This document shows positions 22,065 to 27,999 of a stretch of 64,000 bases of DNA, piece by piece. The notes beneath the pieces were generated by a model, which did not search any database, had not been told where the DNA came from, and saw only the letters and a program-made list of their open reading frames with translations. This stretch comes from Chthonomonadaceae bacterium (GTDB taxonomy: Bacteria > Armatimonadota > Fimbriimonadia > Fimbriimonadales > Fimbriimonadaceae), in contig CP054189.1 in NCBI GenBank assembly GCA_015709495.1, forward strand, positions 1,612,001 through 1,676,000, in the 5' to 3' direction. Position numbers and translations under genes: made by a program. Within the stretch, counting starts at the first letter, position 1, and each line of letters opens with the position of its first letter.

Positions 22065-23525
22065 GTGACTCAGCTCACTCGCTCGCGCTCGATCAAACTC
22101 GCTGCCGCTGTCGGCGCGTTCGCACTGGCGTGGTTCGCCGGAACCGGACTCCCCGAAGGGCAGCAACCCGTCGGCGCTGTGTTCGCTCTCACGGTCGTCT
22201 TGTGGGTCACCGAGGCCCTACCTCTCACCATCACAGCGCTTCTGAGCACCGCCCTCCTCGTGCTGATCGCGGGCATCGACGAAAAGCAGGCGTTTGCAGG
22301 CTATGGCGACCCGATCGTTCCGCTGTTCATCGGGAGCTTCCTCCTTGCCAAAGCGATGGAGGTTACGGGCCTCAGCGAACGCATCGCCTGGTGGATACTG
22401 AACCAACGCTGGGCGTCCGGCAGCCCCTCGCGGCTTCTCTTGGCGCTTGGGATCATCGGCTGCCTGATCTCGCTCGTCGTATCCAACACCGCGACCACCG
22501 CAATGATGCTCCCGATTGGTCTGGGGTTGCTCAAGGCGATGGGAGTCGAGCAGCGGTCCACCGGGTTCGCGATCGCGGTGATGCTCATGCTGACCTGGGG
22601 GTCGAGTGTAGCGGTGGGCTTCCCGGTCGGCACTCCCCCCAACCTGATCGGCATCGCCATGATCGAGCGCTCGACCGGCACGCGAATCGGGTTCGTCGAA
22701 TGGATGCAGTTCTCCATGCCCCTGACCGCCGTCATGACCCTTGCCTCATGGGCAGTGTTACGAGGGATGTACCGCCGAGGCGACCCACCCAACCTCTTGA
22801 GCCCAGACCACGCGCGGGTTCGGCTCTCCGAATTGGGGAAGATGTCACCCGCCGAGCGCAACACGCTTCTGGCGTTCGTCGCCGCGATCGTGCTATGGAT
22901 GACGCCGGACCTCGCCGTGTTCGCTTTAGGGAAGGGCGCGGTACTCGCAGCCTGGTTGCAGGGTCACCTTACGGCGGCGGTGACCGCGCTTCTCGTGGGC
23001 GCGATGCTCTTCCTGCTGCCGACCCGAGGCGCAGAGTCGGGAACCACGCTCACCTGGAAGCAGGGCGCGAGCATCGATTGGGGCACGATCATGCTGTTCG
23101 GGGGCGGGATCGTTCTGGGGCAGGCGATGTTCAGCTCGGGGCTCGCCGAGACTCTGGGGAAAGCGGCGGCGCAGGCGACCGGCGTCGACACGATGTGGGG
23201 AATCACAGCGTTGGGCATATTCGCGGCGGTGATCCTCAGCGAGATGGCCAGCAATACGGCGTCGGCGAGCACCTTGCTGCCCGTGGTGATCGGAATCGCG
23301 CAGGGCGCGGGGGTGGACCCGATCCCGCCGGCCCTTGGAGTGGCCCTGGGGGCGAGCTTTGGGTTCATGTTGCCAGTGAGCACGGCGCCGAACGCGATCG
23401 TTTACAGTTCGGGACTCGTGCCGATGCGGGAGATGATGCGAAGCGGGATCGTGCTGGACCTGCTGGGCGCGGCGGCGACGTTTGCTTGCCTGAGGCTGAT
23501 TCTGCCCCTGATTGGGTTGGCGTAA
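22065..23525 (+). CDS. SLC13/DASS family sodium-coupled anion transporter
   Basis: A 486-residue inner-membrane transporter with 11-12 helices. Family signatures include the SNT motifs: VVSNTATTAMMLPIGLGLL in the first repeat and EMASNTASASTLLPVVIGIA in the second. Also present are PVGTPPNLIGIAMIE and LPVSTAPNAIVYSSG. These are the paired Ser-Asn-Thr sites that bind sodium and the carboxylate or sulfate substrate. Likely substrates are C4 dicarboxylates, citrate or sulfate; sequence alone does not decide. The start is the GTG at 22065, just after a -10 box. Confidence 0.88.
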   Translation: MTQLTRSRSIKLAAAVGAFALAWFAGTGLPEGQQPVGAVFALTVVLWVTEALPLTITALLSTALLVLIAGIDEKQAFAGYGDPIVPLFIGSFLLAKAMEVTGLSERIAWWILNQRWASGSPSRLLLALGIIGCLISLVVSNTATTAMMLPIGLGLLKAMGVEQRSTGFAIAVMLMLTWGSSVAVGFPVGTPPNLIGIAMIERSTGTRIGFVEWMQFSMPLTAVMTLASWAVLRGMYRRGDPPNLLSPDHARVRLSELGKMSPAERNTLLAFVAAIVLWMTPDLAVFALGKGAVLAAWLQGHLTAAVTALLVGAMLFLLPTRGAESGTTLTWKQGASIDWGTIMLFGGGIVLGQAMFSSGLAETLGKAAAQATGVDTMWGITALGIFAAVILSEMASNTASASTLLPVVIGIAQGAGVDPIPPALGVALGASFGFMLPVSTAPNAIVYSSGLVPMREMMRSGIVLDLLGAAATFACLRLILPLIGLA

Positions 23526-23575
23526 TGCGTCCGTGGCGCAAGGTTTCTGCGCCATGGATTGGGGCACAGGCACGA

Positions 23576-23612
23576 CGGGTGGAATGGTGAACGGGGGAAC
23601 TCGGGCCACCCG
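23576..23612. repeat. Hairpin with CGGGTGG/CCACCCG arms
   Basis: CGGGTGG (23576-23582) pairs with CCACCCG (23606-23612), giving a 37-base unit just after the transporter gene. The decamer CGGGTGGCCC at its minus-strand end also occurs next to REP-like hairpin A (18353-18362) and at 24402-24411. It may also terminate the SLC13 transcript. Confidence 0.5.
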
Positions 23613-23637
23613 CCCGCTGAATGCGAGAGGGTTGTAC

Positions 23638-23667
23638 TTGACAGCCCCTTTCCCACTACCTTATCCT
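23638..23667 (+). promoter_or_regulatory. Sigma-70-type promoter for the 115-residue protein
   Basis: TTGACA (23638-23643) and TATCCT (23662-23667) with an 18-base spacer. The first ATG is 8 bases after the -10 box, so a leaderless or near-leaderless transcript is expected. Confidence 0.55.
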
Positions 23668-23675
23668 AAAGTGGG

Positions 23676-24023
23676 ATGATGCTCGAGGTATTCGTAAGGT
23701 CCACGCTTGCTGTGGCGTCCCGCAAAGGGATCGAGGACTTTGCTCCCACTTTGTGCGTTCCTGGCAGAGAGCACGTAGCGGTCATTGCTGGCATTCCAGA
23801 GGGGGTCGATCACCGCGAAGCGATCCAAAACGTCATTCGGCGAAACAGCTTGGAGAGTGAGGAGTTGCTGTTCTCGCTACTCACGGGCGCACAGGAGGTG
23901 ACTGTAGGGCACTGGAAGCCCGGTGGCGCGACCCGGTTTGCTCAAATCGACTTATCGTCCGAAAAACCGGTCGTTGAATTCGACGTTCCCTGCGGCTGGT
24001 GGACCTTGGCGCCCCCAGAGTGA
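23676..24023 (+). CDS. Hypothetical protein, 115 residues
   Basis: A soluble protein without recognised motifs. It has mixed alpha/beta composition (REHVAVIAGIPEGVDHREAI, NSLESEELLFSLLTGA). Start codons ATG-ATG at 23676 and 23679 stand right after a good promoter, which is the main support that it is real. It lies alone between the SLC13 transporter and a transposase remnant. No function can be proposed. Confidence 0.5.
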   Translation: MMLEVFVRSTLAVASRKGIEDFAPTLCVPGREHVAVIAGIPEGVDHREAIQNVIRRNSLESEELLFSLLTGAQEVTVGHWKPGGATRFAQIDLSSEKPVVEFDVPCGWWTLAPPE

Positions 24024-24128
24024 CCAGACATGTGCCCCCTTCCTCGGGAAACTGGGAAACCGCATCGACTCGTCGAAAGCGGAGCCCGCGAGCCTAAACC
24101 CTCCGCGAAAGAAGCGGAAGTCCTTCGA

Positions 24129-24278
24129 CATCGAAGGCCATGCCCACATCCACCAAAACCCGTTCGACGAAAGCTCGTCGCGGAGGCGGCCGAATGGCCA
24201 TGGTCTTCGGTCCGGCTATACCGGAATCTGGAACCCGTCGTCTTTCAGGCGGATCGATGGGAGGTAGGGGAGTGCTGA
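24129..24278 (+). pseudogene. REP-associated tyrosine transposase (RAYT) C-terminal remnant
   Basis: Two frames together give HIHQNP then VRRKLVAEAAEWPWSSVRLY and RNLEPVVFQADRWE. This is the characteristic C-terminal part of Y1_Tnp/RAYT proteins (HxNPVRRGLV...WPWSSxRxY). A single-base loss between the proline and valine codons (near 24155) shifts the frame. The catalytic HUH and tyrosine part is absent. RAYTs move REP palindromes, which fits the REP-like hairpins 5.6 kb upstream. Confidence 0.7.
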
Positions 24279-24505
24279 ACCCAAGGGAAGTCGGGGTCTG
24301 TGGCTCACCGGCTTTCGGAAGTGCTCGTAGTTCTGGTACTCATGGAGACTGATGGGCACGGATAGCACAATCCTCAATCCGTTGCGCCCGACTTCCCACC
24401 CGGGCCACCCGTAGAGCCGGTCCGAAAATGTGCAAGAACTTTGGCCTGATCCATGAGTGACTGGCCGCCCCCCGCCATTCCTCCGCTCATAACATATGGC
24501 CGGGG

Positions 24506-25147
24506 GTGTCAAAATCGGCTCTATTGAAGTTCGAAGAGATCAAGCTCATTCGGTACGAGCACAGCTTGCGCGGGCGTCGCGTGCCCATATTCGCGCCAAG
24601 ACAGCCTATTCGAAACGCTTTTGCAACGGCAAGAGCGAATGGGGAATGGTACATCGTCGGCCAGCGTTCCGCGTTTCGGGCCCTGTCCCGCTTGGCCATG
24701 TTCTCCGCCGTTCACCGTCCCGCCATCGTTTATGTGCGGCTTCAGGGCAAGCCGCGCCCGCCCTTAGACCAAGAAGAATCGCACGACCTCGTGCTCCTGC
24801 AAAGCAGCACGCAGTTCCGTCCGGCCGCTTGGAAGCAGATTAGAAACAATCTGGCGCGCGGAAGGCCGTGCAGCTTCTCAGTGCCCGAACCGGACATAGA
24901 AATGGACAGGCCGGACGCAAGGCGCGTACTCGATCGATTCGATCTCGCTCAGCACTCGGCGACCGTGTTCGTGACCGGAAGCGAGCTAGTGCTGCGCTAC
25001 TTTGCCCATCAATTGCGGCGAATGGCGCGATGCAAGACGCCCGGCGACCACGATCACTTCTTTGAACTTGCGCGGAATGAGCACCGGAGCGGCCAGGTGG
25101 ACGATATGACGATGATGTACTGGCGCTTTGTGAAGGAATCTCCGTAA
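24506..25147 (+). CDS. Hypothetical protein, 213 residues
   Basis: A soluble, arginine-rich protein with no recognised domain. It starts at a GTG (24506) preceded by a G-rich stretch, and ends before a short non-coding gap. Visible segments include EWYIVGQRSAFRALSRLAMF and VFVTGSELVLRYFAHQL. It stands alone, next to the RAYT remnant, in the accessory region. I cannot propose a role. The amino-acid composition is normal for a coding gene of this genome. Confidence 0.45.
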   Translation: MSKSALLKFEEIKLIRYEHSLRGRRVPIFAPRQPIRNAFATARANGEWYIVGQRSAFRALSRLAMFSAVHRPAIVYVRLQGKPRPPLDQEESHDLVLLQSSTQFRPAAWKQIRNNLARGRPCSFSVPEPDIEMDRPDARRVLDRFDLAQHSATVFVTGSELVLRYFAHQLRRMARCKTPGDHDHFFELARNEHRSGQVDDMTMMYWRFVKESP

Positions 25148-25301
25148 TTCGGAGCGTAAGTCCGGGTCTTCGGGAGCGGTTGCTGCGGTCGTTGGGTGGC
25201 AGGCAAAATCGCCCCACCCGGGCGCGGCCCGACACCTGCGCTCGTCGCCATCGTACTAATGTGTGATCGCACACGCGATTAACCTCGCAGGGGAAAGGTC
25301 A

Positions 25302-25928
25302 ATGGAAAACCGATTTTTGACAGGATTCGCATCAGGTTGTTTGGCGGTCGGATTCTTGCTCGGAAGCAAAATCACCGACTCAGGGCTGGCTCGATCTCTG
25401 ACAGGAACCGAGATTGAGGCGAGTGAACAGGGTCCACGGCCCACACTTATCTGGCGATTCGAAACCTCAGAGGACGAGTTGCAGAGCCGTATTACAGTGG
25501 ACCGGGCGGGAGACATCTACTTTGGCTCCGATGACCACCACGTGTACAAGCTATCGCCGCGTGGCGTAGTCCGGTGGTCGTTTGATGCTGGAGCCCCCGT
25601 ACGTTCCACGCCGGCTATTGGCCCGGATGGATTCATCTACTTCGGCGCAAGCAACGGCATGGTCTACGCATTGAATCCTGCAGACGCCTCTCCAAAGTCC
25701 GGATGGCCCTTTCAGGCTGGGGTAGTCGAGTCCGACGTGGAAGTGGGTCCGGACGGGGTCGTGTACGTTGGCAGCTCGGACAGCAATCTCTACGCAATCA
25801 ACCCGGACGGAACGCTCAAGTGGGTTACTCTTCACGAGGGCGACCACGAGTCTTCGCCGACGCTGTGGAACAACCGCATTCTGTTCGTACCGGAATACAA
25901 TGCTGTTCGCGCATACCTGCTGCCTTGA
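25302..25928 (+). CDS. Secreted PQQ-like beta-propeller repeat protein
   Basis: About 208 residues. An N-terminal hydrophobic leader (FLTGFASGCLAVGFLLG) is followed by three to four PQQ-type blades: DIYFGSDDHHVYKLSPRGVV, FIYFGASNGMVYALNP and VVYVGSSDSNLYAINPDGTL. Each ends in the typical xxYALxPdG turn. A complete propeller has seven or eight blades, so this is a short member or a half propeller that may dimerise. Such proteins act as scaffolds, for example BamB-like proteins or parts of quinoprotein enzymes; no catalytic domain is attached. The ATG at 25302 is preceded by GGGGAAAGG. Confidence 0.7.
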   Translation: MENRFLTGFASGCLAVGFLLGSKITDSGLARSLTGTEIEASEQGPRPTLIWRFETSEDELQSRITVDRAGDIYFGSDDHHVYKLSPRGVVRWSFDAGAPVRSTPAIGPDGFIYFGASNGMVYALNPADASPKSGWPFQAGVVESDVEVGPDGVVYVGSSDSNLYAINPDGTLKWVTLHEGDHESSPTLWNNRILFVPEYNAVRAYLLP

Positions 25929-26104
25929 TGCTACGTTGATGGCTTGCATAAGAGGTCCTTCCGAGCGGGGCGGCGGCTGGCAGGCGATGCGTGAGCTTCG
26001 ATCTCCCTTGGGCACGGGTGGCTGACCCTCTCGGTGGGCTGAGGATTCGGAAGACGGGCATGTTCCGCACGCGCACGGCGGGGCTAACTTCATCCTCGCA
26101 CAAA

Positions 26105-26167
26105 GGGTTTGGAGTCTACGGAGAGAAGGACGCCGTTGGCGGCTTCGGCTTCACGGCGGGGGATACT
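26105..26167. repeat. Dispersed repeat, copy 1
   Basis: About 63 bases that match 27309-27371 at roughly four of five positions, starting with GGGTTTGGAGTCTA. On the minus strand both encode a similar peptide (RREAxAAxxxxLSxDSKP), probably the end of a decayed gene. The two copies flank the Panacea toxin-antitoxin pair. Confidence 0.55.
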
Positions 26168-26208
26168 GCAAGCTGGCCCGTTTTCTCTCGCTTCGGCCCT
26201 TCTATTGG

Positions 26209-26478
26209 TCAATCGCGAACCCGATAGATGCTGAGGAGCGTCACTGTGTCCCGGTCAACATACCATTCGACCAAGCAGCGCCACCACACGTCGTCATCGC
26301 CCAGAATCCGTGCATAACGAGGAATGTCAGGGGTGTGCTGCGAGGCGAAAAGCGTCGGGTTGATGCGGAGCTCATGGCAAAGACCTTCGAAATACTCATC
26401 AAAGCGGTCGAGCGAGTCGCAACGCTCCTTTACCTGGCGCTTGAAAGCCTCAGGTATTTCGACCGCTCGTTCTTTCAT
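26209..26478 (-). CDS. Small protein paired with Panacea antitoxin, candidate toxin
   Basis: An 89-residue protein beginning MKERAVEIPEAFKRQVKERC. It ends in a beta-strand-like DTVTLLSIYRVRD after WWRCLVEWYVDR. Its start overlaps the stop of the Panacea gene by four bases (ATGA), the usual coupling in toxin-antitoxin operons. The size, helical N terminus and C-terminal strands are compatible with a RelE/ParE-type fold, but I see no catalytic signature and recognise no family. The toxin role is inferred from the Panacea partner, since PanA antitoxins are known to pair with many unrelated toxins. Confidence 0.6.
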   Translation of the reverse strand: MKERAVEIPEAFKRQVKERCDSLDRFDEYFEGLCHELRINPTLFASQHTPDIPRYARILGDDDVWWRCLVEWYVDRDTVTLLSIYRVRD

Positions 26479-27014
26479 CGCGCTTCGAGCGCCAACTGCT
26501 TTCTCAAGAAGTCAAGTTCTTCTTCGGTGGGGCGCTCTTTGCTGATCAGCGCGGCTTCATACGGAATCCTCTCTCCCGGGTTGGCCAACATCCAGCCGGG
26601 CTCCCGGTGGGAGATCTCGCTGAGCTCGGTAGCCGTCAGTCCCGCATACTCGTTGATCACCCATTCGACGGTCGAGATTTCCTCCGGAGCGAAGTCCTTC
26701 AGGTTAGCGGGCCGAACAGCGGTTGGCCTCAGCTCGCTGTAGTCCCCGATCTCCCTCTTGATCTCGACCAAATCGCCGCCCTTGGTGAGCTCCTTGAGGC
26801 GATCGTGGAACCCATCTGGGATTGGTCCTTGAGGTGCGCAGACATAGATCGCGCAAGTGATCGGCCGCCCATGCTTTCGGTAGTGGCGAAAGTCTGAGAA
26901 ATAGAGAAGCTTGGCGAGCTTTGTGCGGCCCCACGACGGCATCAAGTCGCAACGGTTGCAGATGTAGAGGATCAGCTCCCGGAGCTTGGCGGAGTCGGGT
27001 CTGAAGGCTTTCAT
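26475..27014 (-). CDS. Panacea (SocA/DUF4065) domain antitoxin
   Basis: A 179-residue protein with the Panacea domain over about residues 8-130: LRELILYICNRC, SWGRTKLAKLLYFSDFRHYR and GRPITCAIYVCAPQGPIPD are the conserved parts. Its C-terminal half carries LTATELSEISHREPGW, also typical. Panacea is a widespread antitoxin domain that neutralises diverse toxins and is also found in SocA, the ClpXP adaptor. It is the first gene of a two-gene operon, with the 89-residue partner downstream. A TATGAT -10 box lies about 18 bases upstream of the ATG. Confidence 0.82.
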   Translation of the reverse strand: MKAFRPDSAKLRELILYICNRCDLMPSWGRTKLAKLLYFSDFRHYRKHGRPITCAIYVCAPQGPIPDGFHDRLKELTKGGDLVEIKREIGDYSELRPTAVRPANLKDFAPEEISTVEWVINEYAGLTATELSEISHREPGWMLANPGERIPYEAALISKERPTEEELDFLRKQLALEAR

Positions 27015-27032
27015 GTAAATACTCGTCTATCT

Positions 27033-27038
27033 ATCATA
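27033..27038 (-). promoter_or_regulatory. -10 box TATGAT of the Panacea operon
   Basis: TATGAT on the minus strand lies 18 bases before the ATG at 27014, with no strong Shine-Dalgarno sequence between. Confidence 0.4.
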
Positions 27039-27308
27039 GCAGGGTTTCTTCGGGTTTTCAAGTGTCTCTCGGCGAGCTTACACCTACTGAAGGGACGACA
27101 GAATTGCTTCGCCGGCTTCGCTTGGCCGAACGTCTCAGACGCCGGATTGGACTTGCATGGCGCCGATGGAGGTTTGGGCGGTGTTGGAAGATCGGGGGAT
27201 GGGTTTGGGGCCGAGGAGCACATTCGCCCTCGCAGTAGGATGAACCGTCGGCGTAGCGTCCGGCGCTTTGGGGAATGAACCGACGCCGCTGGGTCAATAG
27301 CTAGCGCT
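27039..27308. other. Non-coding part of a 400-base gap
   Basis: Between the Panacea operon and the DUF433 gene there is no credible gene. The right end of the gap holds the second copy of the dispersed repeat (27309-27371). Confidence 0.4.
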
Positions 27309-27371
27309 GGGTTTGGAGTCTAAGGAGAGGAAGAGGGCGTAGGCGGCTTTGGCTTCTCGGCGGCTGCTTCC
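27309..27371. repeat. Dispersed repeat, copy 2
   Basis: Matches 26105-26167 in the same orientation, including GGGTTTGGAGTCTA and GGCGGCTT-GGCTTC-CGGCGG. On the minus strand it encodes RREAKAAYALFLSLDSKP and a stop, probably the tail of a lost gene. Confidence 0.55.
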
Positions 27372-27417
27372 TGAAACCCACTGTTCGTATCCGGCCTCCG
27401 AGTACACTTGGCTTGTC

Positions 27418-27654
27418 ATGGCGAAGTCACTCATAACCAGCGACCCGAAGGTAGTGATGGGCAAGCAGGTCACTGCCGGTACGCGAATTACTGTCGAGTC
27501 CATCTTTGGGAAGCTTGCCTTCGCGGAGACGATCGAGCAGATTCTGAGGGCTCATCCGAGACTGTCCGTCGAGGCGATTCGAGCGGCGATCGGGTTTGCG
27601 GCCTCTGCCCTTCGCGCGGACGTCGTGTATCCGACGGTTGAGTCTGGCCGGTGA
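27418..27654 (+). CDS. DUF433 family antitoxin
   Basis: A 78-residue protein with the DUF433 pattern: ITSDPKVVMGKQVTAGTRIT, then VESIFGKLAFAETIEQIL and the helix-turn-helix-like end ALRADVVYP. DUF433 proteins are small antitoxins, usually followed by a DUF5615 PIN-like toxin, which is the arrangement here. The ATG at 27418 follows TACACT (27403-27408) by nine bases, so the message is nearly leaderless. The stop TGA overlaps the GTG of the next gene as GTGA. Confidence 0.8.
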   Translation: MAKSLITSDPKVVMGKQVTAGTRITVESIFGKLAFAETIEQILRAHPRLSVEAIRAAIGFAASALRADVVYPTVESGR

Positions 27655-27999
27655 AGCTCCTTGCCGATGAAGGTGGATGCTTCGATCGTCGAGCGGTTTC
27701 GCTCCGATGAACATGAGGTGCTCTCTGTCGCAGAGATGGAGCCGGGAATATCCGATGAGATCGTGCTCGAGAAGGCCATGAAGACCCGCTCGATTTGGGT
27801 CACGCAGGACAAGGACTTCGGCGAGATCGTGTTTCGGCAGGGTCTTGCTACGCACGGGGTCATTTTGATCCGGCTCTCCGGCTTGGCCGCTGAGGAAAAA
27901 GCCAAGGTCGTTTCAGTTGTTCTGGCGACGCGCAGGGCTCAGATGGCAGGGGCTTCACCGTTATCTCGCCCGCGAGCGTCCGCATCCGCCCGCCTCTGA
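27651..27999 (+). CDS. DUF5615 PIN-like toxin, apparently frameshifted
   Basis: The GTG at 27651 starts KLLADEG, the metal-binding N terminus of DUF5615 toxins. The rest of the domain (VDASIVERFRSDEHEVLSV, RSIWVTQDKDFGEIVFRQG, THGVILIRLSGL) is read in the next frame from about 27673. Near 27952 a second break occurs: the family ending FTVISPASVRIR appears in the original frame. The present DNA thus encodes a toxin split over frames. It may be truly inactivated, which would leave DUF433 unneeded, or it may carry sequencing indels. A shorter protein from 27661 would lack the first acidic residues. Confidence 0.6.

Follow-up and report, generated by a model that had tools for sequence, protein, structure and literature searches.

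What kind of protein is encoded beside a Panacea-domain antitoxin gene when its small partner belongs to no family that can be named? The locus that raises this question lies in the window, by which we mean the whole stretch of 64,000 nucleotides analyzed here, from a genome of 2.9 Mb. Most probably the two genes, panA and panT, constitute a type II toxin-antitoxin module in which PanT, a protein of the RelE/ParE fold, is neutralized directly by PanA. The features of the pair are as follows.

26475 to 27014, minus strand: panA, encoding a Panacea-domain antitoxin of 179 residues (PF13274, Pfam SocA_Panacea, E = 9.2e-19)
26209 to 26478, minus strand: panT, encoding a putative toxin of 89 residues with a predicted RelE/ParE fold (beta-alpha-alpha-beta-beta-beta-beta)
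26475 to 26478, minus strand: ATGA, the 4-base stop/start overlap of panA and panT, seen in the sequence
27033 to 27061, minus strand: putative sigma-70-type promoter of panA-panT, TTGAAA-17-TATGAT, with an extended -10 TG

The antitoxin gene and the operon

Both reading frames are intact. A preliminary description had called the Panacea gene clear and had noted its four-base overlap with the downstream gene, and both statements hold: the PanA product scores 68.9 bits against Pfam SocA_Panacea, where the cut-off is 25.7, and has the Panacea (DUF4065) domain that characterizes PanAT antitoxins. A profile built from 44 PanA relatives, with PanA of the window left out, matches it at E = 6e-55. 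The AlphaFold2 model (pLDDT 96.6, pTM 0.89; helices from residues 8-22 through 164-178) is a single compact Panacea unit followed by a short C-terminal helix (164-178), with no additional neutralization domain, and the C-terminal region is conserved (IPYxxA...). Searching the PDB with the PanA sequence gave nothing useful. By fold, the closest PDB entry to its model is 7yk3_B, from the DarTG complex of Mycobacterium tuberculosis (probability 1.00, TM about 0.5).

Panacea antitoxins are experimentally validated neutralizers (PMC8832971; PMC10440598); stand-alone Panacea proteins neutralize directly, while others do so through added domains (PMC10440598). Since PanA has no extra domain, direct neutralization is the mode expected of it. 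The antitoxin-first arrangement of two genes, the Panacea antitoxin and the small downstream toxin are those of PanAT (Kurata et al. 2022; the 2023 NetFlax paper). The type VI system SocAB also resembles the pair, in that its antitoxin SocA is Panacea-related as PanA is a Panacea-domain protein, but PanA falls far below the cut-off of the NCBIfam SocA equivalog (19 bits against 190) and is not a SocA by that measure, and nothing seen in the pair points to protease-adaptor action.

The putative promoter ends 19 nt before the panA start, matches the consensus at 10 of 12 positions and is the sole promoter-like site in 1.5 kb, where shuffled sequences would be expected to yield 0.2. The ATGA overlap likely couples translation of panT to that of panA. 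We infer the toxicity of PanT, its binding and neutralization by PanA, and the regulation of the pair in the following form. From its own promoter panA would be transcribed first, and the overlapping panT would be translated along with it; PanA would bind PanT directly through the Panacea core, the conserved C-terminal helix or both, leaving PanT inactive; and PanT would be freed when PanA is lost or when the Panacea domain senses a trigger.

A PanT family found through the antitoxin

Pfam, PHROGs and NCBIfam contain no family that matches PanT at E<=10, which bears out the earlier statement that the 89-residue partner has no nameable family. A sub-threshold match to PADLOC JetA (E = 0.022) is spurious, being to helices only, and designed helical proteins of the PDB were dropped as relatives for the same kind of helix-only matching. 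As a single query, the 89-residue protein found no relative in the genome_contigs collection, and a search of 291 genomes of the phylum gave chance-level matches only, with no convincing homolog. The best of these phylum-wide matches, L002 in a genome of the same genus (25 residues, E = 2.6e-4), was rejected because its genome is without any Panacea match. Codon statistics of panT are weak, and alone they are insufficient to prove that the 89-residue frame is coding.

Loci were fetched with the antitoxin sequence only, the partner never serving as query, so partners were found without bias. Related Panaceas occur in 25 of the 291 phylum genomes. The nearest intact ones (L050, L027, L029, L051, L034) have a gene of 88-104 residues in the downstream slot; many of the remoter ones are followed by an unrelated, longer gene. 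A query alignment of four Panaceas (A1) brought in 49 loci, 43 of them in genome_contigs and 6 in viral contigs, together spanning about a dozen phyla as well as the viral contigs; sources include Chloroflexi, Acidobacteria, Planctomycetes, Verrucomicrobia, Nitrospirae, Actinobacteria, Trueperaceae and Alphaproteobacteria, among others. A PanT profile was seeded with 15 obvious partners and then iterated, with PanT of the window excluded throughout. It detects a same-strand family member directly downstream of the Panacea gene at 37 of the 49 loci; conserved pairing in other genomes, whose absence the preliminary description had named as part of a refutation, is thus present. Three more loci (L067, L077, L089) have a member nearby in some other arrangement. 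Among the ORFs of the fetched loci, no clear match to the profile lies away from a Panacea-adjacent position, and no family members turned up when plasmids and phages were searched with a typical one. Not every member is whole: those of L063, L064 and L091 are broken or truncated.

The seed profile, which does not contain PanT of the window, scores it at 18.3 bits, and the iterated profile, likewise without it, at 21-23 bits, whereas its own sequence shuffled 5,000 times never exceeds 15.1. Run on all 1,085 stop-to-stop ORFs of the window, the leave-out profile returns panT as its sole match (E = 1.3e-5, 21.3 bits; the next ORF is at 0.14), and this match to panT alone supports the coding status of the frame. 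On profile evidence, PanT of the window is a very diverged member of a widespread family that has no entry in the libraries scanned. Distances among PanA proteins correlate with those among PanT proteins (38 pairs, r = 0.55; 0 of 5,000 permutations reach it), which supports co-inheritance of the two. The correlation agrees with a type II complex of PanA and PanT and is not proof of contact, since shared descent contributes.

PanT of the window is at a distance of at least 0.86 from every other PanT, out of proportion to its antitoxin, whose nearest relative is at an ordinary 0.65. Panacea exchanges partners often (PMC8832971), and the 89-residue protein might be another branch of the RelE/ParE fold swapped in beside Panacea from outside the PanT family. 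We think this unlikely: the leave-out PanT profile picks out PanT of the window uniquely, generic ParE and RelE library profiles give it no match at E<=10, and its length, its slot and its overlap are those of the PanT family.

Predicted fold and possible mode of action of PanT

The preliminary description had proposed a sensitive profile search and structure prediction for the 89-residue protein. Carried out here, they yield sub-threshold toxin profiles and a predicted RelE/ParE fold. The AlphaFold2 model, based on a 37-row alignment (A3), has pLDDT 85 and pTM 0.74 and places strands at 5-7, 46-48, 53-59, 68-74 and 78-86 and helices at 10-19 and 23-39, that is, the strand, two helices and antiparallel sheet expected of the fold. 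In Foldseek searches of the PDB the best 25 matches to the model are all toxins of the RelE/ParE superfamily, including YoeB, YafQ, ParE2, M. tuberculosis ParE2, HigB2, RelE and PfiT, and further the Pseudomonas aeruginosa ParE and a Helicobacter pylori toxin. The best probability is 1.00 and TM-scores reach 0.69 on the query, with a modest E-value of 4e-3 at best. Sub-threshold profile matches of the family to natural toxins in the PDB are to HigB-2 (the best, 0.052), PfiT and YoeB (0.62). Pfam ParE_toxin, the sole library family to match more than one member, matches 3 of 37 at a sub-threshold 0.047. The assignment of PanT as a RelE/ParE-fold protein is supported by the predicted model and, weakly, by these profiles, in keeping with the earlier suggestion of a diverged RelE/ParE relative.

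The other earlier suggestion, a toxin type not yet described, did not survive: the predicted fold is a known one, and Panacea antitoxins with ParE-domain partners were reported in 2022 (PMC8832971). A truly novel fold or kind of toxin, at which the empty sequence-library searches could be taken to hint, is highly improbable for PanT given that the predicted fold and the best fold matches are all RelE/ParE. No library scanned has a name for the PanT family, and the combination of Panacea with a RelE/ParE-type toxin is of an already known kind. Published PanAT networks include ParE-domain partners and toxins of the RelE/ParE fold, as here; the difference is that none of the profile libraries scanned matches the PanT family, which may yet coincide with one of the 88 published toxin clusters.

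With YoeB, ParE2, HigB2, RelE, YafQ and PfiT, PanT shares its size and its predicted fold, but identities are 7-20%, there is no significant sequence match, and the RelE catalytic set is not conserved. The antitoxin differs as well, being a Panacea here and of the RelB, YefM, ParD or HigA types in the classical RelE/ParE systems. Conservation in the PanT family is mostly structural (F12, D27, L37, P41, V79, L81, I84). Among 42 relatives, with positions mapped by sequence only, the C-terminal strands that form the predicted cleft have no near-invariant Lys, Arg or His, and the conserved catalytic basic residues of the RelE type are not found in the family by the same mapping.

One fold serves both RNA cleavage and ParE-like activities (PMC10440598). 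The same module could have as its toxin a ribosome-dependent mRNA interferase of the RelE, YoeB or HigB type, a serious contender whose chances we put at somewhat under even. YoeB, YafQ, HigB2 and RelE are among the closest solved folds, HigB-2 is the best natural profile match, and PanT of the window itself carries R54, R57, R67, Y85, R86 and R88 in what sequence placement makes its C-terminal strands; the lack of a near-invariant basic or His residue in those strands across the relatives counts mildly against RNA cleavage of the RelE type. For that reason we lean slightly towards a ParE-like action on an essential protein, e.g. DNA gyrase, over RelE-like mRNA cleavage. It is rather improbable that the PanT family, with PanT of the window as an outlier, comprises RelE/ParE-fold toxins that are neither mRNases nor directed at gyrase, with Panacea neutralizing them through its core or its C-terminal helix.

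Antitoxins normally block the RelE/ParE fold with flexible tails. How a single antitoxin domain deals with such a fold could be tested well on RelE/ParE-fold toxins that Panacea neutralizes. One Panacea partner that had been unknown can now be assigned a predicted fold and a widely distributed family, and with the PanT profile dozens of unnamed genes next to Panacea genes could be annotated.

Genomic setting and a second pair

The pair lies in a region that differs between genomes of the same species, with these features.

23525 to 27577: variable islet of 4.05 kb holding panA-panT, replaced by an unrelated 1.54 kb in the same-species genome G135
26105 to 26159, plus strand: 55-nt direct repeat, copy 1, just past the panT 3' end
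27309 to 27363, plus strand: 55-nt direct repeat, copy 2, upstream of panA

To the left and right of the islet, identity to G135 is 92-96%, with no substantial alignment in between, and G135 has no copy of the panA-panT pair of the window. The right-hand junction cuts a DUF433 gene in G135, from which it follows that G135 lost sequence here; a recent gain in the genome of the window is not shown by this. The absence from G135 is one reason to ask whether panA-panT is no more than a remnant, decayed or inactive, with a PanT that is no longer toxic, as are the remote PanT sequence, its weak codon signal and the visibly broken state of the relatives L063, L064 and L103. Intact panA and panT frames, the start/stop overlap, a good putative promoter and a confident PanT model argue to the contrary, and we hold such decay to be improbable; a functional module is the reading we prefer.

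The two copies of the repeat are 85% identical, flank panA-panT and are exactly the two found in the genome; two close relatives contain no copy. They were considered as integron attC-like hairpins and rejected, their folding being not unusual (z = 1.07 and -0.30) and their copies in the genome being only two. Within the islet, a 213-residue ORF (24506-25147, plus strand) weakly resembles immunity protein 32 (Imm32; E = 0.0014, a match that does not reach the cut-off). At 27418-27999 (plus strand), a DUF433 gene (E = 2e-14) and a DUF5615 gene (E = 2e-15) form a divergent neighboring pair, which is probably a toxin-antitoxin module itself; in G135 the DUF433 gene is truncated on its 5' side and the DUF5615 gene is intact.

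Elsewhere in the phylum, the remoter Panaceas L031, L035, L037, L038, L043, L047 and L053 have in common a downstream gene of about 120-160 residues with a motif of roughly G-x-FP-E...CxFTxPPKxKYV, a partner that may be MazF/PemK-like. L030 has a Panacea of the same type as the L031 group, and what comes next there is another Panacea-like ORF instead.

The genome of the window encodes a second intact Panacea pair of the same type as panA-panT (L050, G000:C1:867201-867692), beside an ATP-synthase beta-like gene. It is kept in the same-species genome, again beside an ATP-synthase beta-like gene. Between the two genomes its toxin gene shows 0 nucleotide differences in 267 bases. The flank downstream has diverged, with differences at 71 of 1,188 ungapped positions, a count that indels may inflate.
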